From the NCBI GenBank assembly GCA_009782475.1, contig WRIZ01000002.1, forward strand, positions 64,001 through 128,000: 64,000 nt of DNA. The letters are read 5' to 3'. This stretch comes from Oscillospiraceae bacterium (GTDB lineage Bacteria > Bacillota > Clostridia > Oscillospirales > UBA929). The translations under genes and the position numbers were made by a program. Positions 32,329-54,235 of the stretch are shown here, piece after piece. Each line of letters begins with the position of its first letter. Position 1 is the first letter of the stretch. The notes beneath the pieces were generated by a model. The model saw only the letters and a list, made by a program, of their open reading frames with translations. It ran no database searches and was not told where the DNA came from.

Positions 32329-33015
32329 CGGCGCGGCGTCGAGCCTGGTTGCCAAAAAGGCTCCCAAAAAGGCGGCCGGAAGCCCGGCTCCTATGCACCA
32401 AAGACCCTCCCGCCAAACGATCTGTTTGTTTTTGATATGCCCAACCATCGACCCGATGGCGCACGGGGGGAAATAGAGCAGATTACTCCCTTGCGCCGCG
32501 TGCTGTTCCAATCCGCCGAAGGCCGTCATCCAAATCAGGAGCAGTACGCCTCCGCCCAACCCAAAGCCGCTCAATACGCCGGTTCCCGCTCCGGCGGCGG
32601 CGGACGGGAGAACGCCGTCAAAGGCGAGCCCCGTCTCCCACTGGAAAAACTGGCGCACAACACCCAGCAGTAACAGGACGCCAAAGCTGCGACGGAGCCA
32701 GCCGGGTGCCGTTTTGGCAAAGAGGAACCCGGCGATGACCCCTCCGATCAGCCCTCCCAAAGCGTAAGGCCAAGCCGTATTCCACGGGAGCTTTCCGCTG
32801 GCCGCGTACATAGCGGCACTGACGGCGCAGAGAGGCGCGACGCAGAAAACAGACGTCGCCATAGCGCGTTTGGCGTCCAAACCGATCCAATCGCGCAATA
32901 AAGGGACAAGCACCGCACCGCCGCCTGCCCCCAGCAATCCGCATATGATTCCCGCGCCAACGCCCGCGCTCGCGCTTTTTACTGTTTTTTTCCGCTTCCC
33001 GTTATCTTTTTCCAT
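32242..33015 (-). CDS. TauE/SafE family sulfite exporter-like membrane protein
   Basis: Multiple TM helices, GAGGGAVLVPLL and FGLGGGVLLLIWM glycine-rich repeats. Confidence 0.88.
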   Translation of the reverse strand: MEKDNGKRKKTVKSASAGVGAGIICGLLGAGGGAVLVPLLRDWIGLDAKRAMATSVFCVAPLCAVSAAMYAASGKLPWNTAWPYALGGLIGGVIAGFLFAKTAPGWLRRSFGVLLLLGVVRQFFQWETGLAFDGVLPSAAAGAGTGVLSGFGLGGGVLLLIWMTAFGGLEQHAAQGSNLLYFPPCAIGSMVGHIKNKQIVWREGLWCIGAGLPAAFLGAFLATRLDAAPLRIGFGILTALIGLREVFFRKKEPVQDQ

Positions 33016-34553
33016 ACAGGAATTATGCTCCTTTTGGCGGTCAATATACCCCAAACGGACGAGCCGATACTGCGGGAAACGGCCTTGTCAAACCGCATTT
33101 TCGGCAAATCGGCATAGAAACGTTCGCGGTTCTTGTGCCGGTTCGGGATGGTCACAAGGGCGGTGTTGTAATCAGGCAGCACATCAGGAGGAACCTCCCT
33201 CACAATGGCGCGTGAGGCCAGGCTGTCCATGACCTGAAACCCTTTTTCCGTATGCGCCAGCACCAGTGACGCGCCTTTATCGTCGAACAGTTCGGGGATA
33301 TGCTTGCGCCCGCCGGGGAAGGAACCCAGCGTCAGGTCGCTGCCGCGTTTTTCCTCATGGTGGGGGCAGTTATAGCATTCGGGGCGCAGACAAAGCCCGG
33401 CGCGGTAAGCCCGCAGGAAGGGGTCGCGTTCGACGGCGACTTCATAGGTACCGTTCTCCGAGCCGATCCGCACCTTGGCGTGGCTCAGTCCCATCGGCTT
33501 GCTTGAGAGATCGACCGCCGTCGCGGGCGCGCCGTTCTTCTCTTCCACATATTTTAAGTAGGCGGCAAAGACAGCCGGGTCGGCGGCTCCGCCGCAAACC
33601 ATGTCAACCGTCAGAAGGAGGGGATGGTCATGCTCCCTCCCGCCCAAGTGTTTATACAAGCTGCTGATCTGACAGGCCGTTCCCGTGAACAAAACATGTT
33701 TGCCCTGCTTCAGGCTGGAAACGGCTTGATCGTAAATCCCTTCGGTATCACTGAAGGCGTATTTCACTCCGCGCATGGGGATGCAATCGGGCATCCGGTC
33801 GGCTTTGACGTGGATGGTTTCAAAAATGGCATTGAACCGCGCGCCGAACACAACGCCGCCGCGGCCGATATACTCCTCGCACAGCAGCGAAAACACCCCT
33901 CCGGCCGCGCTGGCCGCCCGGACGTTTTCATTCTTGTTCACAACGCCGTAGGCGTGGATACGAGGCGAAAACTCGATCACATCGGAAGGTTCGCTTAAAG
34001 GAAGGTCATATTCAGGCAGCGGCGTCAATTTGGGTAAGTCGCTTAAATCAATCATTGGCGGCGGATCGCCGCCGATCATGTCCGATTCAGTTTGCGGCAG
34101 TGAGGTAGCTGTATGCCCGCTCTCAGGTTTGCCTTCTACAGGCGGCTCTTCAACCCCGGCGGATTTCGGCAGCACGACGTCGGCGTAGCCCGCTTCGCGC
34201 AACGCCGCATACGCCTCTTTATCACGGGCGAAAATCAAATCAAACATCGGCAAAACAGCGTAACACCGCTTGATCCATAATTCTTCGCAACCCCAAAGAA
34301 CCGCTTTGCACCCGGCTTTCTTCACGGCTGTGATAAAGGGTTTGTGTTTGGGTTCGCCTCCGTGAATGGCAACGTCGGCGTCGTCGGCCAGCGTTCGGAA
34401 ACGGGAGGTCACAAACAAACCAAGAGGGGCTTCATAATCAATCAGTTCGGCACGCCCAAAGAAACGGGATACCTGCTCCCGCTCTCCCCCGAACTGTCCG
34501 AACAATAAAATTTTGATAACAATCACCGTTAAAGAGTATACCATAATTGTCAA
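32979..34553 (-). CDS. Polysaccharide pyruvyl transferase-like N-terminus fused to FrhB-type (F420 hydrogenase beta subunit-like) domain
   Basis: C-terminal AAGGVFSLLCEEYIGRGGVVFGA..., LFTGTACQISSLYKHLG, CYNCPHHEEKRGSDLTLGSF; N-term Rossmann-like about 130 aa. Real start may be GTG at 34526. Confidence 0.75.
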   Translation of the reverse strand: MTIMVYSLTVIVIKILLFGQFGGEREQVSRFFGRAELIDYEAPLGLFVTSRFRTLADDADVAIHGGEPKHKPFITAVKKAGCKAVLWGCEELWIKRCYAVLPMFDLIFARDKEAYAALREAGYADVVLPKSAGVEEPPVEGKPESGHTATSLPQTESDMIGGDPPPMIDLSDLPKLTPLPEYDLPLSEPSDVIEFSPRIHAYGVVNKNENVRAASAAGGVFSLLCEEYIGRGGVVFGARFNAIFETIHVKADRMPDCIPMRGVKYAFSDTEGIYDQAVSSLKQGKHVLFTGTACQISSLYKHLGGREHDHPLLLTVDMVCGGAADPAVFAAYLKYVEEKNGAPATAVDLSSKPMGLSHAKVRIGSENGTYEVAVERDPFLRAYRAGLCLRPECYNCPHHEEKRGSDLTLGSFPGGRKHIPELFDDKGASLVLAHTEKGFQVMDSLASRAIVREVPPDVLPDYNTALVTIPNRHKNRERFYADLPKMRFDKAVSRSIGSSVWGILTAKRSIIPVWKKITGSGKKQ

Positions 34554-34582: not shown

Positions 34583-36340
34583 ATGGTTTTTCAAGCGGCT
34601 CCGGGCAAAACGGCTGATTTTCTATTGATCACAGGCGACGCCTGGGTCGACCATCCCGCGTTCGGCGCGGCGGTCATTGCCCGCGTACTGGAAGCCGAAG
34701 GGTTTACAACAGCTTATATTGCACAGCCGGACTGGAAGGATGCTTCTTCCCTCAGCGGGCTGCCGCGTCCCCGGTTGGCGGGGTTGGTCACGTCGGGCAA
34801 CCTCGATTCAATGGTGGCAAATTACACCGCCGCCCGAAGGCAGCGTAACGCTGCACCCAATGGCGGCTGCGGCCGCGGGACGGGAGTGGGGAGAAAACCG
34901 GACAGAGCTTGTATCGTTTACACCGGGTTGTTGAAAGCGGCCTTTCCGGGGCTGCCTGTCATTCTCGGCGGGCTGGAAGCGTCGCTTCGCCGGTTTGCCC
35001 ACTATGATTATTGGGATGATAGGGTGCGGCGGTCAATCCTCGTCGATTCGGGAGCCGACATTTTGGTTTACGGTATGGGGGAGCGCACCATACGGGAGCT
35101 GGCTCGTCAGATGGATAAAGGGGAAGAGCTTTACACGCGCGGCATATGCTTCCTAACCGACAAAACCCCTTCCAATGCGGTTGTTTTACCGTCGTTCGAG
35201 CAGGTTTCAAAAGACAAACGAACCTACGCCAAAGCGACCATGCTGGAGTACCGGGAACATGACCCCATCCGCGGCCGGACGCTCTGCCAATCGCATAGTA
35301 ACCGTTTTTTGGTATGCACACCGCCCGCCATGCCGCTTTCAGCGGCCGAGCTGGACGCTGTGGCTGAATTGCCGTTCACCCGCCTGCCCGTGTCAAAAGA
35401 AACAGAGGAGATTCAATTCTCCCTCATCCACAACCGGGGCTGCTTCGGGGGATGTAACTTTTGTTCGCTGGCCTTCCATCAGGGGCGCATCATCTCTTCC
35501 CGCAGTCACGCGTCCTTACTGCGGGAAGCGGAAAAACTGACCCAAATGCCGGGGTTCAAAGGGTATATCCACGACGTAGGCGGCCCGACGGCCAATTTCC
35601 GTCATCCCGCCTGTAAAAAACAGATGAAATCAGGCTCTTGCCCCGACCGGCACTGCCTGACGCCCAAACCCTGCCCCAATCTGGACGCTTCCCATGCCGA
35701 TTATCTCATCCTCTTACAAAAACTGCGGGCTTTACCGGGTGTCAAAAAGGTTTTTGTGCGTTCGGGGATACGGTATGATTACCTCATGCTGGACAAATCG
35801 GGGCATTGTATGGAGGAACTGGTCAAACATCACATCAGCGGGCAGCTGAAAGTCGCGCCGGAGCATTGCCGCGACCATGTGCTTGACCTGATGAACAAAC
35901 CGCGTTTCGCCGCCTACCGCGCTTTCTGCAAGAAATATGAAGCCCTGAACAGCAAGGCGGGGAAGAAGCAATTTTTAGTCCCTTATCTCATCTCGTCCCA
36001 TCCCGGTTCGCGGCTGGAAGACGCCGTGGAACTGGCTCTGACCCTCAAACGCATGGGGCGCAGGCCGGAACAGGTGCAGGACTTTTACCCGACGCCGGGG
36101 ACGATTTCAACCTGTATGTATCACACCGGCCTCGACCCTCGTACGATGAAGCCGGTGTACGCCGCCAAGACGCCGCATGAAAAAGCCATGCAGCGGGCGT
36201 TGCTGCAATGGTTCTTGCCGCAAAACCGCAAGCTGGTGTTGGAAGGGCTGCGTCAAGCGGGACGGGAGGATTTGATCCCGGTACTTTTGGGCGGCGTGAG
36301 GATGAAAGGAAAACCCCCAGCCAAACGGCGGGGGAGGTGA
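34583..36340 (+). CDS. ygiQ: YgiQ family radical SAM protein
   Basis: FLLITGDAWVDHPAFG, radical SAM HNRGCFGGCNFCSLAFHQGR, KVAPEH; in-frame repeat near residue 87. Confidence 0.93.
   Translation: MVFQAAPGKTADFLLITGDAWVDHPAFGAAVIARVLEAEGFTTAYIAQPDWKDASSLSGLPRPRLAGLVTSGNLDSMVANYTAARRQRNAAPNGGCGRGTGVGRKPDRACIVYTGLLKAAFPGLPVILGGLEASLRRFAHYDYWDDRVRRSILVDSGADILVYGMGERTIRELARQMDKGEELYTRGICFLTDKTPSNAVVLPSFEQVSKDKRTYAKATMLEYREHDPIRGRTLCQSHSNRFLVCTPPAMPLSAAELDAVAELPFTRLPVSKETEEIQFSLIHNRGCFGGCNFCSLAFHQGRIISSRSHASLLREAEKLTQMPGFKGYIHDVGGPTANFRHPACKKQMKSGSCPDRHCLTPKPCPNLDASHADYLILLQKLRALPGVKKVFVRSGIRYDYLMLDKSGHCMEELVKHHISGQLKVAPEHCRDHVLDLMNKPRFAAYRAFCKKYEALNSKAGKKQFLVPYLISSHPGSRLEDAVELALTLKRMGRRPEQVQDFYPTPGTISTCMYHTGLDPRTMKPVYAAKTPHEKAMQRALLQWFLPQNRKLVLEGLRQAGREDLIPVLLGGVRMKGKPPAKRRGR
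34838..34886 (+). repeat. In-frame palindromic insertion in ygiQ (family 1)
   Basis: ggcagcgtaacgctgcacccaatggcggctgcggccgcgggacgggag, encodes RQRNAAPNGGCGRGTG; aligns to copies in pheT, pheS and carB. Confidence 0.8.
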
Positions 36341-43265: not shown

Positions 43266-46200
43266 TCACGCGTTCGCTATATCCACAACGTCCAAACGTC
43301 CCGGGCTGCGGTGCTCCAAACTGAGCAGCAGTGCTTCGGCGGTATCCAGCGAGGTGAGGCAGGGGATACCGCTCTCTACGGCGATCCGGCGGATGAGGTA
43401 TCCGTCCCGCCGGGAGCTCACGCCGCCAGTGCTGGTATTGATGACAAGGTCAACGCCTTTACTGCGAATGAACTCCAATATATTGAGATCACCTTCGGCC
43501 TCCACCTTGTAAATCAAACTAGCGCGGAGTCCATGTTCTTGCAACGCCGCGTAAGTTCCTTCCGTCGCGTATATCTCATACCCCAGCGTTTGGAACCGGC
43601 GTGCCAAAGCGCACATCTCGACTTTGTCGGCGTCGCTGACCGTCATGATGACGCGGCGCGTCACCGACCGCAGATACCCGCCGCCGATGAAAGCCTTCAG
43701 CAGTGCGTCGGGCAGGTTATCGGATATACCCAAAACCTCCCCGGTTGACTTCATTTCAGGCCCTAGGCTGACTTCTGCGCCGTATAATTTTTCAAAGGAG
43801 AAAACCGGCATTTTAACGGCTGTGTATTGCTTTTCGGGGTAAAACCCGTACGCGTATCCCAAATCAGGCAGTTTGAACCCCAGCGCGGCCTGTGTGGCGA
43901 GGTCTACGACCGGCAATCCGGTGATTTTGGAGATATACGGCACGGTGCGTGAAGAGCGCGGATTGGCTTCGATAACGTAAACCTTTCCGTCGTGCAGGAT
44001 AAATTGGATGTTGATCAGCCCGCGCACCCCCAAAGCCAAAGCAATGTCGCGGGTGTAGCGGTAAAGCGTCTCACGGCGCGCTTCGGGAACCCGTCCGGGC
44101 GGGTAAACCGAGATGGAATCGCCCGAATGCACCCCGGCTCGTTCCAAATGCTCCATAATACCGGGAATGAGGACGTCCTCGCCGTCGCAGATGGCGTCCA
44201 CCTCAACTTCCAGCCCCATGATGTATTGGTCAATCAGAATGGGGCGTCCGTCATAGAGCTCCATGTTGTCCAGCCAGTCGTTCAGCTCCTCGTCGGAGAA
44301 GGCGATGGTCATGCCTTGTCCGCCCAGCACATACGATGGGCGGGCGAGAACCGGGTAGCCGAGTTCGTGAGCGGTTTGGACGGCGTCTTCACGGGTGTAA
44401 ACAGCCGCGCCGCGCGGACGGTCGATCTTGCAGTCCTCCAGGATGCGGTCAAATATTTTCCGGTCTTCGGCTCCGTCCACCCCGGAGAACGGGGTGCCGA
44501 TGATTTGGATGCCCAAGTCATGCAGGGGTTTTGCCAGCTTGATGGCCGTCTGTCCGCCGAATTGCACCATCACGCCGATAGGCTTCTCAATGTCGAGGAT
44601 GCTAACCACATCTTCCGGCGTGAGCGGTTCAAAATACAAGCGGTCGGCCACATCGAAATCGGTGCTGACCGTTTCGGGGTTGTTGTTGATGATGATGGCT
44701 TCATATCCGGCATTCTGCAACGCCCAGACGCAATGGACTGAGCAATAGTCAAACTCGATCCCCTGACCGATGCGGATGGGGCCCGAACCGAGCACGACGA
44801 CCCGGCGAGCCGCCGATGGCTGTGACGGCTGCGGCCGTGAGACGGGAGCTTCATTGGATACACCATAGGCCGAATAGTAATACGGCGTCTGAGCGGTAAA
44901 TTCCCCGGCGCAAGTGTCAACCACACGGTAACCGGGTACGATGCCGCTGCTGAGGCGTTCGTCCCGTATATCCCGCTCCGTTTTCCCGGTTTGGCGGGCG
45001 ATCAGGCTATCGGGGAAGCCGAGCTTTTTGGCGTGGAGAAGCAGTTGCGGTGTGAGAGGGGAGCGGGTCAAGACCCATTCCATCCGTACGATGGAATAGA
45101 TTTTTGAGAGGAACCAGCGGTCTATTTTGGTGATTGTATATAAATGATCAAGAAGCGGCATCACCTCTTCGGCGATATGACGGCGCAGATACTCGGCCAG
45201 CACAAACAGCCGCCGGTCGTCGATCAGCGTCAGCCGTTCTTCCAAAGCGTCGTCGCTCAATTCAGCCAATTCCGGCATTTGCAGGCTGTCAAATCCCTGT
45301 TCAAGGCTGCGCACCGCTTTCAGCAGGGCGGCTTCAAACGAGGGGGAGATGCTCATAACTTCCCCGGTCGCTTTCATCTGCGTTCCGAGTGTGCGTTTGG
45401 CCGTGACAAACTTATCAAACGGCCATTTGGGGATTTTGACACAGCAATAGTCCACCGAAGGCTCGAAACTGGCGTAGGTGGATTGGGTCACGGCATTGCG
45501 TATCTCATCCAGCCGGTAGCCCAGCGCAATCTTGGTGGCCACTTTGGCGATCGGGAAACCGACGGCTTTGGAAGCCAACGCCGAGGAGCGCGACAGGCGG
45601 GGGTTGACCTCGATCACGGCATATTCAAAACTCGCCGGATGCAGGGCAAACTGCACGTTGCAGCCGCCTTCGATCCCCAATTCATCGATAATGTCGAGGG
45701 AAGCCTTGCGCAGCATATTGTATTCCGGCGCGCCCAGCGTCTGCGTGGGTGCCACGACGATCGAGTCGCCTGTGTGGACGCCGACCGGGTCGATGTTCTC
45801 CATGCCGCAGATGGCGATGCGGTTTCCCGCGCCGTCGCGCATGACCTCAAACTCGACTTCCTTCCAACCGGCGATACACCGCTCAACCAATACCTGCCCG
45901 ACACGGGACGCGCGCAGGCCGCCGGACGCGATGGCGCGAAGCTCCGCTTCATCATACGCAATGCCGCCGCCCGCGCCGCCGAGGGTGTATGCCGGGCGAA
46001 TGACAACGGGATAGCCTGTCCGTTCCGCGAAATCCAGCGCGCCTTGCAAATCTTCCGAAACGATGCTCTCAATGCAGGGCTGGCCGATGGCTTCCATCGT
46101 CTGCTTGAAAATCAGCCTGTCTTCGGCCTTGCGGATGGTTTCAGGGCCGGTGCCGATCAAACGCACGTTATAGGCGTCTAAAAATCCGTCTTCGGCCAGT

Positions 46201-46502
46201 TCCATACATAGGTTGAGGCCGGTTTGCCCGCCTAGGGTGCCGATGACGCTGTCCGGGCGTTCTTTGCGGATGACGTCGCGCACCGTGTCGGTCGTCATCG
46301 GTTCAATGTAGACCCGGTCGGCGATGTCCTTATCGGTCATAATGGTGGCGGGATTGGAGTTGATCAGGATGACCTCCAGCCCCTCTTCCTTCAAAGCGCG
46401 GCAGCACTGCGTCCCCGCGTAGTCAAATTCGGCGGCCTGCCCGATGACAATCGGCCCCGAACCGATAACCAATACCTTCTTGATCGAATTATCTCTTGGC
46501 AT
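43266..46502 (-). CDS. carB: Carbamoyl-phosphate synthase large subunit
   Basis: 1078 aa; KVLVIGSGPIVIGQAAEFDYAGTQ, duplicated ATP-grasp halves, second LGSGPIRIGQGIEFDYCSVH, C-term MGS domain. Confidence 0.97.
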   Translation of the reverse strand: MPRDNSIKKVLVIGSGPIVIGQAAEFDYAGTQCCRALKEEGLEVILINSNPATIMTDKDIADRVYIEPMTTDTVRDVIRKERPDSVIGTLGGQTGLNLCMELAEDGFLDAYNVRLIGTGPETIRKAEDRLIFKQTMEAIGQPCIESIVSEDLQGALDFAERTGYPVVIRPAYTLGGAGGGIAYDEAELRAIASGGLRASRVGQVLVERCIAGWKEVEFEVMRDGAGNRIAICGMENIDPVGVHTGDSIVVAPTQTLGAPEYNMLRKASLDIIDELGIEGGCNVQFALHPASFEYAVIEVNPRLSRSSALASKAVGFPIAKVATKIALGYRLDEIRNAVTQSTYASFEPSVDYCCVKIPKWPFDKFVTAKRTLGTQMKATGEVMSISPSFEAALLKAVRSLEQGFDSLQMPELAELSDDALEERLTLIDDRRLFVLAEYLRRHIAEEVMPLLDHLYTITKIDRWFLSKIYSIVRMEWVLTRSPLTPQLLLHAKKLGFPDSLIARQTGKTERDIRDERLSSGIVPGYRVVDTCAGEFTAQTPYYYSAYGVSNEAPVSRPQPSQPSAARRVVVLGSGPIRIGQGIEFDYCSVHCVWALQNAGYEAIIINNNPETVSTDFDVADRLYFEPLTPEDVVSILDIEKPIGVMVQFGGQTAIKLAKPLHDLGIQIIGTPFSGVDGAEDRKIFDRILEDCKIDRPRGAAVYTREDAVQTAHELGYPVLARPSYVLGGQGMTIAFSDEELNDWLDNMELYDGRPILIDQYIMGLEVEVDAICDGEDVLIPGIMEHLERAGVHSGDSISVYPPGRVPEARRETLYRYTRDIALALGVRGLINIQFILHDGKVYVIEANPRSSRTVPYISKITGLPVVDLATQAALGFKLPDLGYAYGFYPEKQYTAVKMPVFSFEKLYGAEVSLGPEMKSTGEVLGISDNLPDALLKAFIGGGYLRSVTRRVIMTVSDADKVEMCALARRFQTLGYEIYATEGTYAALQEHGLRASLIYKVEAEGDLNILEFIRSKGVDLVINTSTGGVSSRRDGYLIRRIAVESGIPCLTSLDTAEALLLSLEHRSPGRLDVVDIANA
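44811..44850 (+). repeat. Family 1 repeat-like segment inside carB, antisense to the gene
   Basis: ccgatggctgtgacGGCTGCGGCCGtGaGACGGGAGct matches the 3' half of the ygiQ copy. Confidence 0.6.
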
Positions 46503-47523
46503 ATGATTTCTCCAGTATCTTCACAAATTCCTGAACGGTCTCCACATCCGGCTGGAATTGAACGGACAGCATATCCTCCCGCCAGCTCAACCCTTCCACC
46601 GAACTGTCATTGACGTTGACGTGGCTGATGATTCCTGACTCAACGCTGCTTGTGTCCACCGTAAACCCATGGTTTTGGGTTGTGATGGCGACCTTGCCTG
46701 TTTGAATATCGCGCACCGGGATGTTCGCGCCTCTGTGGCCGGGGGAGAGGGACGTGATTTTCGCGCCATTGGCCAAAGCCAGCAGATGATGACCCAACCC
46801 CACGGCGAAGACAGGTTTTCCCGTTTGAATGATCGTTTTAACCGTCGTCAAATCATAATCCTCGGGGTTGCCGGGGCCGCCGGGCAGAAGGTAACCGTCG
46901 TATGTGCCGTCGATCACGTCGCCGTACGGAAAAACTTCCAGCGAGACGCCGCATGAAAGCAGCATTCGCTCCAAATCCCGCCGCAAGCCGGTATCGGCGA
47001 CGGCGACAGTTGCGATGGTGTTCTCTGCTTTGACCGAACGCCGTTGGGCATGATAACGCGAAAGGGGAGGAGCAGAGAGCGGGTACTCTGTTTGCTCATT
47101 GTCACCAACAAAAACGGACACTGTCCGCGGCGACTCGCCGCCTTGCCTGCTGCGTAAAAGCCGTACCAGTGAACGTGTGTCAATCCCGGTAATCACGGGA
47201 ATGTCAAAACGTTCCAGCACGGCCTTTAAGGAGTCTTCGCTTCTAAAATTGCTGTGTATTTCAGAAAGTTCGGAAACGATGAGGGCGGCGGCATGTGGTT
47301 TATCGGATTGAAAATCCTCATAGCAAACGCCGTAGTTGCCGATCAGGGGATTGGTGAGAACAATGGCTTGTCCCATCGACGACGGGTCGGTCAGTATCTC
47401 TGTTACCCCGGTCATCGAAGTGTTAAAAACAATGCCGCTTGTGAATCCTTCGGTCATCCCGCCCATGCAAAACCCTGAAAAAATCTGTCCGCTTTCCAGT
47501 TTGATCGTGGCTTTCAAGCGCAA
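46489..47523 (-). CDS. carA: Carbamoyl-phosphate synthase small subunit with altered glutaminase active site
   Basis: CarA-like N-domain GMTEGFTSGIVFNTSMTGVTEILTDPSSMGQAIVLTNPLIGNYG; GATase loop FAVGLGHHLLALANGAK lacks the Cys; SVQFQPDVE in place of SVQYHPEA. Confidence 0.95.
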   Translation of the reverse strand: MRLKATIKLESGQIFSGFCMGGMTEGFTSGIVFNTSMTGVTEILTDPSSMGQAIVLTNPLIGNYGVCYEDFQSDKPHAAALIVSELSEIHSNFRSEDSLKAVLERFDIPVITGIDTRSLVRLLRSRQGGESPRTVSVFVGDNEQTEYPLSAPPLSRYHAQRRSVKAENTIATVAVADTGLRRDLERMLLSCGVSLEVFPYGDVIDGTYDGYLLPGGPGNPEDYDLTTVKTIIQTGKPVFAVGLGHHLLALANGAKITSLSPGHRGANIPVRDIQTGKVAITTQNHGFTVDTSSVESGIISHVNVNDSSVEGLSWREDMLSVQFQPDVETVQEFVKILEKSYAKR

Positions 47524-50762: not shown

Positions 50763-53162
50763 TTATGTGCGGATGGTCACGCCGAGTTCCTCTTTGAGCT
50801 TTTTCAAAAGTTGACTGATCGCGCCGTCGGCCTCTTCGTCGGTCAATGTGCGGTCGGGCGCGCGGAAGATCAGGCGGTAGGCCAAACTGTTCAGCTTCTC
50901 AAAGACGTCAAACAAAACGCAGTCTTCGAGCAAACTCCCGCCCGTTTTGCGGATCACAGCCAATAGCTCAGCCGCCGCGGTATCCTTCGGGCAGACCAAA
51001 GCGAGGTCGCGCGTGATGGCCGGGCAACGGGGCAACGGGGCAAAAACCGCGTCAGGCTGAGCCAGTTCCAGCAAAATATCGGCGTCCAGTTCGCAAACGG
51101 CCGCGTTTTTCGGCAAACCAAGCGAAGGATGCAGTTCTCCGATCATGCCAAGAGTGCGTCCGCCGATCGAAACCCCGGCGCAGCGGCCGGGATGGAAGGA
51201 ATGCTTACCATTATCACGGCTAAACGAGGCTTCTTTGCGGCAGAAACGACTGATTAGCGACTCGACCGCGCCTTTCAGGCAGAAATAATCCATGCCGCCG
51301 CCATATCCGCCGAGGATCAAGCGTTTTGATTCAAGCGGAAGCTGACCGCCTTGCTTGATATAAACCGCGCTGATTTCGTATAGATGCGCTTCCGGGTTCC
51401 GTGCCGAATGGTTGCGTGTCAGCACTTCCAGCATAGAGGGCAGAAGGGAGGTGCGCATGATGCTGTGCTCCTCGCCCAGCGGATTACGGAGTACCATCGC
51501 TTCCGTCTCGCAACCGCAGTTGCCATCGGGTGCAGCATCATGCTGCCGCCGCCCGATGAAGGAATAGGTCAGCATTTCGTAAAAGCCTAAAGATACACAG
51601 AGCTCATGAAGTTGTGCCTGTAAAGATTGTTCCCTTGTCAGCCAGCCCTGGTTTTTAGAAGGAGGCAGTGTTGACGGAATGTTGTCATACCCAAACAGCC
51701 GCGCCGCCTCTTCGGCCAAATCCTGCCAAATGGATACATCCCTCCGCCATGACGGCACAACGGCCGCGCCGTCTTTCACCGTGAAACCGAGCGATTCCAG
51801 CAGTTCATTAACATTAGAGATGGTAACGCCAAGATGTTCATTGATCTGTTTTTCGGTAAATTGCACGGCCACAGGCTCTTCGGGCGGGATGCCGCAATCA
51901 ATGACGCCGGGAATGGGCGTCCCCGCGCCCAGTTCATTCAATAGGGCGCAAGCTCTCTCTAACGCGGGCAGGGTGGCGGCGGGATCAAGCCCTTTTTCAA
52001 AGCGCGACGAAGCGTCGGTGCGCATGGCAAGGGATAACGCTGTCTTCCGCACGGACGAGCCGTTGAAATTGGCCGATTCAAAGACAATCGTTGTTGTTGT
52101 TTCGGTGATTTCGCTGGCCGCGCCGCCCATCACGCCCGCAACAGCCGTTGCGTTGTGCGCGTCGGCGATAACCAGCATTGAAGGCTCCAATGCCCGCGCT
52201 TTCCCGTCCAGTGTTTCCAGCGTCTCGCCGGGACGCGCCGCGCGGATGACGAGCTGTTTATCTTGAACACAAGCATAATCAAAAGCGTGCATCGGCTGCC
52301 CGAGTTCGAGCATGACATAATTGGTGACGTCAACGATGTTGTTGATCGGGCGGATGCCGCAGGAACGCAGGCGGCGGCGCATCCACATCGGCGAAGGTTG
52401 GATTTGAATATTGTTGACCATCCTCGCGGAATAACGCGGGCAGAGGACGGTATCTTCCACCGTGACGGTGAGGTAGTCTGTGATGCGTGGGGAACTCCCT
52501 TCGGCCGCTTCGCGTCCACCTCCCTCTGTGAGGGAGGCTTTTTTGCCCTCCTCTTTGAGGAGGGTGTCGGTGCAGCCGACGGGAGGAGTTCGCAGCGTTG
52601 CCGCTGTTTCCCGTGCCAAACCGATAACCGACAAGCAGTCGGGGCGGTTGTTGGTGATCTCGAATTCCAGCACGGTGTCTCGCAGCATCAACGCTTCAAC
52701 AATATCCGCTCCGACGGTAAAACCATCTCCGAGGATCAATATTCCGTCCGCTCCGGCTCCCGGCTGGTCGTGTTCGTCCAGCCCCAGCTCTTCGCCGCTG
52801 CAAAGCATCCCCTGGGATTCCAAGCCGCGCATTTTTCCTGTTTTGATCTTCTTTCCGCCCGGCAGCAAAGCCCCGTCTAAAGCGGCGGGGACGACAGCCC
52901 CGGCGAAGACATTGGTTGCCCCGGTGATGATTTGCCGGGGCGCGCCGTCGCCGACGTCCACCGAACAGACGAAGAGCCTGTCGGCGTCCGGGTGCTTTTC
53001 GATGGACAGCACCTTCCCGGCGACAACCTTTTGGATGTCCGCGCCCAGCTCGGTGACGGTTTCCACCTTGCTCCCGCTCATGGTCAGCGCGTGAGCCAGC
53101 TCTTTGGGCGACACCCCGTCTAAATTGACATATTCTTTTAACCAGTTATAGGAACACTTCAT
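50763..53162 (-). CDS. pheT: Phenylalanine--tRNA ligase beta subunit
   Basis: MKCSYNWLKEYVNLDGVSPKELAHALTMSGSKVE, NNRPDCLSVIGLARE, B5 domain, C-term FDX-ACB domain; two in-frame repeats. Confidence 0.96.
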   Translation of the reverse strand: MKCSYNWLKEYVNLDGVSPKELAHALTMSGSKVETVTELGADIQKVVAGKVLSIEKHPDADRLFVCSVDVGDGAPRQIITGATNVFAGAVVPAALDGALLPGGKKIKTGKMRGLESQGMLCSGEELGLDEHDQPGAGADGILILGDGFTVGADIVEALMLRDTVLEFEITNNRPDCLSVIGLARETAATLRTPPVGCTDTLLKEEGKKASLTEGGGREAAEGSSPRITDYLTVTVEDTVLCPRYSARMVNNIQIQPSPMWMRRRLRSCGIRPINNIVDVTNYVMLELGQPMHAFDYACVQDKQLVIRAARPGETLETLDGKARALEPSMLVIADAHNATAVAGVMGGAASEITETTTTIVFESANFNGSSVRKTALSLAMRTDASSRFEKGLDPAATLPALERACALLNELGAGTPIPGVIDCGIPPEEPVAVQFTEKQINEHLGVTISNVNELLESLGFTVKDGAAVVPSWRRDVSIWQDLAEEAARLFGYDNIPSTLPPSKNQGWLTREQSLQAQLHELCVSLGFYEMLTYSFIGRRQHDAAPDGNCGCETEAMVLRNPLGEEHSIMRTSLLPSMLEVLTRNHSARNPEAHLYEISAVYIKQGGQLPLESKRLILGGYGGGMDYFCLKGAVESLISRFCRKEASFSRDNGKHSFHPGRCAGVSIGGRTLGMIGELHPSLGLPKNAAVCELDADILLELAQPDAVFAPLPRCPAITRDLALVCPKDTAAAELLAVIRKTGGSLLEDCVLFDVFEKLNSLAYRLIFRAPDRTLTDEEADGAISQLLKKLKEELGVTIRT
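51501..51550 (-). repeat. In-frame palindromic insertion in pheT (family 1)
   Basis: Sense strand ggcggcagcatgatgctgcacccgatggcaactgcggttgcgagacggaa encodes RQHDAAPDGNCGCETE; aligns with ygiQ copy. Confidence 0.8.
52493..52590 (-). repeat. 98-bp composite palindromic insertion in pheT (family 2)
   Basis: Outer AACTCCC.../...GGGAGGAGTT, inner cctccctc-tgt-gagggagg and ccctcctc-ttt-gaggaggg and gtcggtgcagccgac hairpins; shares GGTGGACGCGAAGCGG with tilS copy. Confidence 0.85.
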
Positions 53163-53173
53163 GATCTTACTCC

Positions 53174-54235
53174 TTAAAATTGACGTAAGAAACGGACGTC
53201 GTTTTCGTAAAGCAGCCTTAAATCGTTGATTTTATACCGCATCATCGTCAGCCGTTCGATCCCCACGCCGAAGGCGAAACCGCTGTAAACGCTTGAATCG
53301 ATGTTGCAGCGGTCAAGAACCGCCGGATGAACCATCCCGCTCCCCAGCATTTCGATCCAGCCTTCGTTTTTGCACATCCGGCAGCCTTCGCCGCGGCAGG
53401 CGAAGCATTGCAAATCAACTTCGGCCGAGGGTTCGGTGTAGGGGAAGTGATGAGGGCGGAACCGCAGCTTGACGTCCAGGCCGTACAGCCCGGTCATCAT
53501 GGTTTGCAGCGCGCCTTTGAGGTCTGCCATGGTGAGGCCTTTGTCCACCGCGAGGCATTCGATTTGATGAAAGAGCGGGGAATGGGTGGCGTCGATTTCG
53601 TCTTTGCGGAAAGTTTTTCCGGGGGAAATGATGCGTATAGGCAACCCAACGTCCCGCGCGCCGGGCGCGCCATTGAGTGCAGCGTCACGCTGCTCCATAA
53701 TTCGGATCTGAACGGAAGATGTTTGGGTGCGTAAAATCGTATCATCGTCAAAATAAAAGGTATCCTGCGGGTCGCGGGCGGGATGGTTTGGCTCTATATT
53801 CAGCGCGTCAAAGCAATAGTATGTCGTTTCCACTTCAGGCCCTTCGGCCACGGTAAAACCCATGCCGAGGAATATTTTAACCACATCGTCTAACACCGCC
53901 TGCATCGGGTGGCGGCGTCCGGTGCGGAAGGTTTTCCCGGGAAGGGTGACGTCTATCGTCTCGGCGTCCAAACGGGCGGCCATTTCAGATTGGTTGATGC
54001 GCGCCGACGCTTCTTCTAAGGCCGCTTCGATCGCCGCGCGGACTTCATTGGCCAAAGCTCCGGCCGCAGGACGTTCCTCGGCGGAGAGCGTCCCCATTTG
54101 CTTTAACACTGAGGTCAGCTCGCCCTTTTTGCCCAAAAGCCACACCCGTATATTTTCAAGCGAAGCGGCGTCTTTCGCGTTGCCGACCGCCTCCAACGCT
54201 TTCCGGCGCAGTTCCTCTAAATTCTCTCGCAGCAT
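53174..54235 (-). CDS. pheS: Phenylalanine--tRNA ligase alpha subunit
   Basis: HPMQAVLDDVVKIFLGMGFTVAEGPEVE, TQTSSVQIRIME, DATHSPLFHQIECLAVDKGL, GMVHPAVLDRCNID, FAFGVGIERLTMMRY. Confidence 0.97.
   Translation of the reverse strand: MLRENLEELRRKALEAVGNAKDAASLENIRVWLLGKKGELTSVLKQMGTLSAEERPAAGALANEVRAAIEAALEEASARINQSEMAARLDAETIDVTLPGKTFRTGRRHPMQAVLDDVVKIFLGMGFTVAEGPEVETTYYCFDALNIEPNHPARDPQDTFYFDDDTILRTQTSSVQIRIMEQRDAALNGAPGARDVGLPIRIISPGKTFRKDEIDATHSPLFHQIECLAVDKGLTMADLKGALQTMMTGLYGLDVKLRFRPHHFPYTEPSAEVDLQCFACRGEGCRMCKNEGWIEMLGSGMVHPAVLDRCNIDSSVYSGFAFGVGIERLTMMRYKINDLRLLYENDVRFLRQF
53650..53695 (-). repeat. In-frame palindromic insertion in pheS (family 1)
   Basis: Sense ggagcagcgtgacgctgcactcaatggcgcgcccggcgcgcgggacg encodes EQRDAALNGAPGARD; aligns with ygiQ and pheT copies. 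Confidence 0.8.

Follow-up and report, generated by a model that had tools for sequence, protein, structure and literature searches.

A short palindromic repeat made of two unequal hairpins is dispersed through the genome of this Oscillospiraceae gut bacterium, mostly inside the reading frames of unrelated proteins. Four clear copies lie in the window, the 64,000-nt stretch of DNA analysed here: in ygiQ, pheT, pheS and carB (Table 1). Judging from sequence comparisons, we put the probability at roughly 0.8 that the repeat is a non-autonomous mobile element that would work like Rickettsia palindromic elements (RPEs) and REPs, its present copies being frame-preserving survivors in protein loops. 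A preliminary description of this DNA had located the copies in pheT, ygiQ and pheS and proposed an element family in a Clostridia-type genome, in frame in unrelated proteins and analogous to RPEs. Both the places and the analogy held up, as did the peptides RQHDAAPDG (pheT), RQRNAAPNG (ygiQ) and EQRDAALNG (pheS), all read in the same frame; genome-wide, the family has 36 copies. The carB copy and a probable relative of the element in carA were absent from that description.

Structure and copy number of the repeat

The window copies sit within recognizable genes. The pheT copy encodes RQHDAAPDGNCGCETEA, at about residues 539-555 of PheT, and the reading frame continues unbroken through it. In pheS, the encoded peptide EQRDAALNGAPGARDVG has a conserved segment on either side, 'QIRxM' before it and 'PIRIISPG' after it. 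The carB copy, read by the gene as APVSRPQPSQPSAARR, lies just ahead of the second-half preATP-grasp domain and is flanked on both sides by Pfam CPSase domains. The ygiQ and pheT copies together form the longest inverted repeat of the window (77 nt, 70%). A weaker hairpin in carA is probably, and tentatively, a diverged copy of the element or a member of a sister subfamily. The inverted-repeat partner of the carA hairpin region lies at 34057-34124 (-), inside the gene at 32979-34553, where a hairpin complementary to that region, GGCGGCGATCCGCCGCC, is followed by AATG and read MIGGDPPPMID; it perhaps represents a second palindrome family in genes.

Table 1. Repeat copies, related features and host genes in the window, with hairpin-1 modules found next to tRNAs.
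Feature	Position	Strand	Evidence and details
ygiQ-type radical SAM protein, 597 aa	34547..36340	+	Pfam Radical_SAM_N, DUF3362
Element copy in ygiQ	34839..34886	+	R2 72.3 bits; encodes RQRNAAPNGGCGRGTGV
carB, carbamoyl-phosphate synthase large chain	43266..46502	-	Pfam on the part read (locus L346); translation
Element copy in carB	44802..44848	+ (antisense to gene)	R2 38.2 bits, E 8e-7
Hairpin GGCGGCGAGTCGCCGC in carA	47096..47142	-	R2 17.4 bits, E 0.04; read QGGESPRTVSV
pheT, phenylalanyl-tRNA synthetase beta chain, 799 aa	50763..53162	-	Pfam B3_4, tRNA_synthFbeta, FDX-ACB
Element copy in pheT	51500..51547	-	R2 64.7 bits; sequence GGCAGCATGATGCTGCACCCGATGGCAACTGCGGTTGCGAGACGGAAG
pheS, phenylalanyl-tRNA synthetase alpha chain, 359 aa	53174..54253	-	Pfam tRNA-synt_2d
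Element copy in pheS	53646..53694	-	R2 57.2 bits
Hairpin-1 modules behind various tRNAs	L255-L257, L272, L290, L291, L293, L300, L301, L305		
Hairpin-1 modules behind various tRNAs, continued	L332-L335, L337, L339		

Most copies measure 45-49 nt and follow the consensus GGCAGCGTGACGCTGC-ACCCAATG-GCGGCTGCGGCCGC-GGGACGGGGG (5' to 3'), with two unequal hairpins in a fixed order. Hairpin 1 (GCAGCG-TGA-CGCTGC) is followed by the linker ACCCAATG; hairpin 2 (GCGGC-TGCG-GCCGC, with the stem variants GCAAC/GTTGC and GCGCGC/GCGCGC) has a loop of 4 nt and is followed by the tail GGGACGGGGG. The stems are G+C-rich and 5-6 bp long, and 30 of the 36 copies have GACG among their final 14 nt. At three loci (L029, L032, L035), hairpin 1 is joined to a different second half in which a GGGACG tail is kept. 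The nested CATCGGG...CCCGATG pairing previously noted is peculiar to the pheT copy and is not a trait of the family (enrichment p = 0.23); the CATCGG of this outer pairing is host sequence common to relatives.

Compensatory changes are seen in both stems. Across 44 distinct copies, two-sided compensatory changes were found in 9 of 11 pairs and 94% of cells were paired, compared with 53% or less in controls that slid the 3' partner. The 44-copy alignment was fitted to the structure and its pair count therefore leans towards the fold; a sequence-only alignment of ten copies displayed the same compensatory pattern. Stem 1 alone occurs as nine different fully complementary sequences. Part of this covariation could stem from arm-to-arm correction of quasi-palindromes, not from selection. 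Carried further, this idea would have independent local mutations, by quasi-palindrome correction or template switching, make similar hairpins gene by gene with no mobility at all. Stems that vary yet remain complementary and target residues that are replaced rather than cleanly split would be expected from such events, but unrelated genes and unrelated families have in common an exact 20-nt core, GCAGCGTGACGCTGCAYCCA, that comprises the core of hairpin 1 and its unpaired linker. The shared 20-mer rules out local mutation as the sole cause and leaves this account extremely improbable, although local events may still explain the variation of the stems.

Copy numbers were established with an exact core and with covariance models. 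The exact 19-nt core GCAGCRTNAYGCTGCACYC matches 13 times in the 2.1-Mb host genome, where base counting predicts about 0.001 matches and the reversed control pattern gives none. A first model, R1, built from ten copies, yielded 36 matches at E<=0.1; some of its weak matches were unlike the element when read (L042 in the host genome; L047, L049 and L050 in relatives) and were left uncounted. A second model, R2, built from 48 partly overlapping matches, yielded 36 host-genome matches at E<=0.001. All 36-copy tallies given here are R2 matches, the weakest of which could still be false; they add about 33 copies to the three first described. At the same threshold, R2 found none in four of six other genomes of the genus and 6 and 7 copies in the remaining two; it also found none in 9 of another 11 genomes from the family and order. 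The copy-rich genomes of the genus are that of the host (G000, 92% complete), G003 and G005. Diverged elements occupy the same place in what seems to be one gene (FLTPAEQRD...) in G003 (L064) and G005 (L066), and this pair is a candidate for a vertically inherited copy. An exact 25-mer had no matches in a collection of genome contigs, from which the host and near genomes are possibly missing, and an Rfam search returned nothing except tRNAs above the gathering score.

Insertion sites, reading frames and protein loops

ORFs cover nearly the whole window, and the repeat does not avoid coding sequence. Among the 36 copies, 31 are internal to ORFs (28 in ORFs with Pfam-recognized domains and 3 in ORFs without a Pfam match), 3 lie in C-terminal tails and 2 are intergenic. 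The genes involved, some of them named from our reading of domains and flanks, are mostly housekeeping genes, about two dozen in number. ProS and FtsK carry two copies each. Single copies occur in PheS, PheT, GatB, AspS, TsaB, TsaD, TsaE and TrmB, in DnaE, DnaX, SMC, RecN, Mfd, AddA and ObgE, in PurF, CarB, transketolase, YgiQ and two further radical SAM proteins (one HemZ-like, one with SPASM), and in a histidine kinase, an SLH protein and a VanY-type protein.

Orthologues lack the element. Using a chimeric query of 18 flank pairs to locate them, we found the element sequence missing from same-genus orthologues at 17 sites compared, with a caveat at tsaE, and its absence was also seen at the DNA level. 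No orthologue carried the residues that the element encodes; their presence there, or a lack of more copies in the genome, would have refuted the earlier proposal. Net gains, read by eye from the alignments, ranged overall from about -1 to +15 residues. The largest were in TsaE (+15), PurF (+14), PheS (+13 relative to 8 orthologues) and RecN (about +12), followed by DnaX, TsaB and DnaE (+11 each) and YgiQ (+11 relative to its two nearest same-genus orthologues). Smaller gains were found in ProS (+9 and +3), TsaD (+6), SMC (+5) and Mfd (+2), and FtsK, HemZ and AddA gained about 0. Since +15 or +16 is expected where an insertion is clean, target residues have usually been lost, either at insertion or later. 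Flank identity to even the closest orthologues is no more than ~70-86%, too low for exact insertion boundaries to be read. PheT, for which a clean insertion had been anticipated, does not show one: the corresponding variable loop of its relatives is equal in length or slightly shorter (0 to +4, depending on the relative), and PheS is the cleaner example. The site is likewise a variable loop among 80 further PheTs. The nearest named PheT, from the Oscillospiraceae MAG Th196P3bin109, is 70% identical. Hairpin-like inserts that differ from the host's element are present in G003 at the tsaE (L203), purF (L223) and dnaX (L227) sites. The one in tsaE perhaps records an old or independent event, and the three sites may be insertion hotspots or old shared insertions. 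Target-site duplications were not seen; 33 of the 36 copies lack an abutting repeat of even 2 nt.

Which frame a gene uses is biased, and more than one is used. By our own classification of the 28 copies in Pfam-recognized genes, 15 are read in the pheT frame (QRDAAPNGGCGRGTG) and 7 in the second open sense frame (GSVTLHPMAAAAAGR), whereas 6 are antisense, in two frames. The fixed frame first proposed is thus true for three of the window copies and does not extend to the genome. The same frame table rules out that a protein motif was inherited or selected at the amino-acid level: three window copies give similar peptides in one frame, but across genes the repeat is translated in four frames, two of them sense and two antisense, and the probability of this reading is close to nil. 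The third sense frame, which contains TGA, is used by none of the 28. Tolerance had been attributed to one frame being free of stops; in fact the consensus is stop-free in five of its six frames and just one contains a stop, so a lack of stops cannot account for the preference. That the polar sense frame is favoured suggests selection after insertion, and we infer that other insertions were purged. Orientation within genes is also skewed (22 sense versus 6 antisense, p = 0.004), an excess that may instead arise from an orientation preference built into insertion itself.

Structural models put the PheS and PheT inserts in segments of low confidence that are probably flexible. In the AlphaFold2 model of PheS, pLDDT falls below 50 at residues 192-200, between a helix and the next strand, and the insert is missing from the best-matching solved PheS chain. 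The AlphaFold mapping proposed earlier for PheT likewise put its insert in a low-confidence segment (pLDDT < 50 at 547-553).

Hairpin 1 next to tRNAs and stop codons

Hairpin 1 has a wider distribution than the complete element. Of 396 genomes sampled across the order, 16 contain the exact 20-mer; they represent 10 of 168 genera, and the reversed control had no matches in the same 396 genomes. Sampling at the class level turned up a 20-mer of near-identical sequence beyond the order, in three genomes of one genus. The module is patchy across the order, and intragenic spread is prominent in the genus of the window.

The least expected part of our results is where these modules lie. In families of the class other than the window's own, at least 16 copies start 0-1 base past the CCA end of a tRNA called by ARAGORN, all in the sense orientation and often preceding a terminator-like second hairpin (Table 1). 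In two further lineages, several copies of hairpin 1 start at or directly after a stop codon. At locus L292 of G158 (upstream of position 1501), the CCA end that precedes the module has no ARAGORN tRNA call, and the sequence before it resembles a tmRNA 3' end. Such docking would be compatible with selection for harmless sites, with a part in the processing of 3' ends or with mobility at the RNA level.

A functional RNA element, kept by selection as a 3'-end stabilizer or pre-terminator hairpin and serving within genes as a pause or mRNA-stability signal, could explain the uniform orientation behind tRNAs, the frequent terminator-like hairpin downstream, the copies that begin at stop codons and the sense bias within genes. 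Such a function is at odds with the patchy occurrence (16 of 396 genomes), the lack of a fixed gene set, the antisense copies inside genes and the orthologous sites in sister species that are without the element, and we regard it as unlikely. A distinctly unlikely alternative, offered as speculation, is that the hairpin 1 plus ACCCA module is itself an RNA-level mobile element: it would join or be copied onto transcript 3' ends (the CCA of mature tRNAs, the ends of ORFs) in the sense orientation before returning to DNA. Within a single gut lineage, the module would then have moved out into gene bodies, where it would add or replace loops of many housekeeping enzymes.

Mobilization and comparison with known repeats

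Under the preferred reading, a non-autonomous repeat that moves between genes, a trans-acting factor would copy the element as a folded single strand to new sites; alternatively, copies would enter as templated insertions during replication repair. Copying from a single strand or templated insertion would account for the missing target residues as well as the absence of duplications. Frame-breaking insertions and those that fall in ordered structure would be purged, leaving survivors in loops and mostly in the polar sense frame.

One candidate for the trans-acting factor is a RAYT/Y1 transposase, which would make the repeat a REP. Two hairpins with a conserved flanking tag are REP-like, and Y1_Tnp genes exist in some relatives, but Y1_Tnp (RAYT type, PF01797) was not found in the three copy-rich genomes G000, G003 and G005, nor was the hairpin core found at the Y1_Tnp loci scanned elsewhere in the order. 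The host assembly is incomplete enough for a Y1 gene to have been missed; even so, we consider mobilization by such an enzyme very improbable. With neither a Y1_Tnp in the copy-rich genomes nor a hairpin core at the scanned loci, the mechanism of spread is one that we infer.

Several known repeat classes share features with the element. RPEs (RPE-1 and others; Ogata et al. 2000, 2002) are ~150 bp long and occur in Rickettsia, as far as the account in PMC10969869 extends. Measured against that account (PMC10969869), the element resembles RPEs in being a dispersed palindrome, in frame in unrelated housekeeping genes and apparently tolerated there. It differs, in a comparison by description only, in being 45-49 nt long and residing in Oscillospiraceae, in using two sense and two antisense frames and in replacing target residues. 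CGTC-tagged REPs (Di Nocera et al. 2013; PMC3733652) have stems of 8-9 bp that start with AT and loops of 4-5 nt; they are known from Proteobacteria, Chlorobi, Bacteroidetes, Spirochaetes and Thermotogae, with Firmicutes unlisted in that survey, and are mostly intergenic. Intragenic units do occur, often in replication and repair genes, and the family is without a known dedicated transposase (PMC3733652). The element shares with them a GACG (CGTC on the other strand) near its end in most copies and the loop size of hairpin 2; unlike them, it has shorter, G+C-rich stems and two unequal hairpins in fixed order. Because stem length, composition and habitat differ and Firmicutes are unlisted, we do not place it in the CGTC-REP family. 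REPs in general seldom overlap coding sequence, whereas 31 of the 36 copies here are internal to ORFs. GTAG-tagged REPs with RAYT transposases are short hairpins that often lie directly past stop codons (PMC3733652), a habit that the element shares; its consensus, however, has no GTAG tag, and the copy-rich genomes have no Y1 transposase. Like MITEs, the element is small, non-autonomous and dispersed, but it has two separate hairpins in place of terminal inverted repeats and lacks target-site duplications. It belongs to neither the RPE nor the CGTC-REP family, being set apart from the former by description. A text search of the literature for a 15-nt core found no paper, most subscription journals being outside its scope.

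Rickettsia offers the best-known examples of selfish palindromes within protein genes, together with the intragenic REPs of some genomes in other phyla. The genome studied here adds a member of the Clostridia, a lineage unrelated to Rickettsia, with intragenic palindromes in about two dozen housekeeping genes. Together, the empty sites within the genus, a measurable preference for frame and orientation and a relative docked at tRNAs make up a system in which the movement of repeats can be tested, as can the tolerance of proteins for random inserts of ~15 residues.
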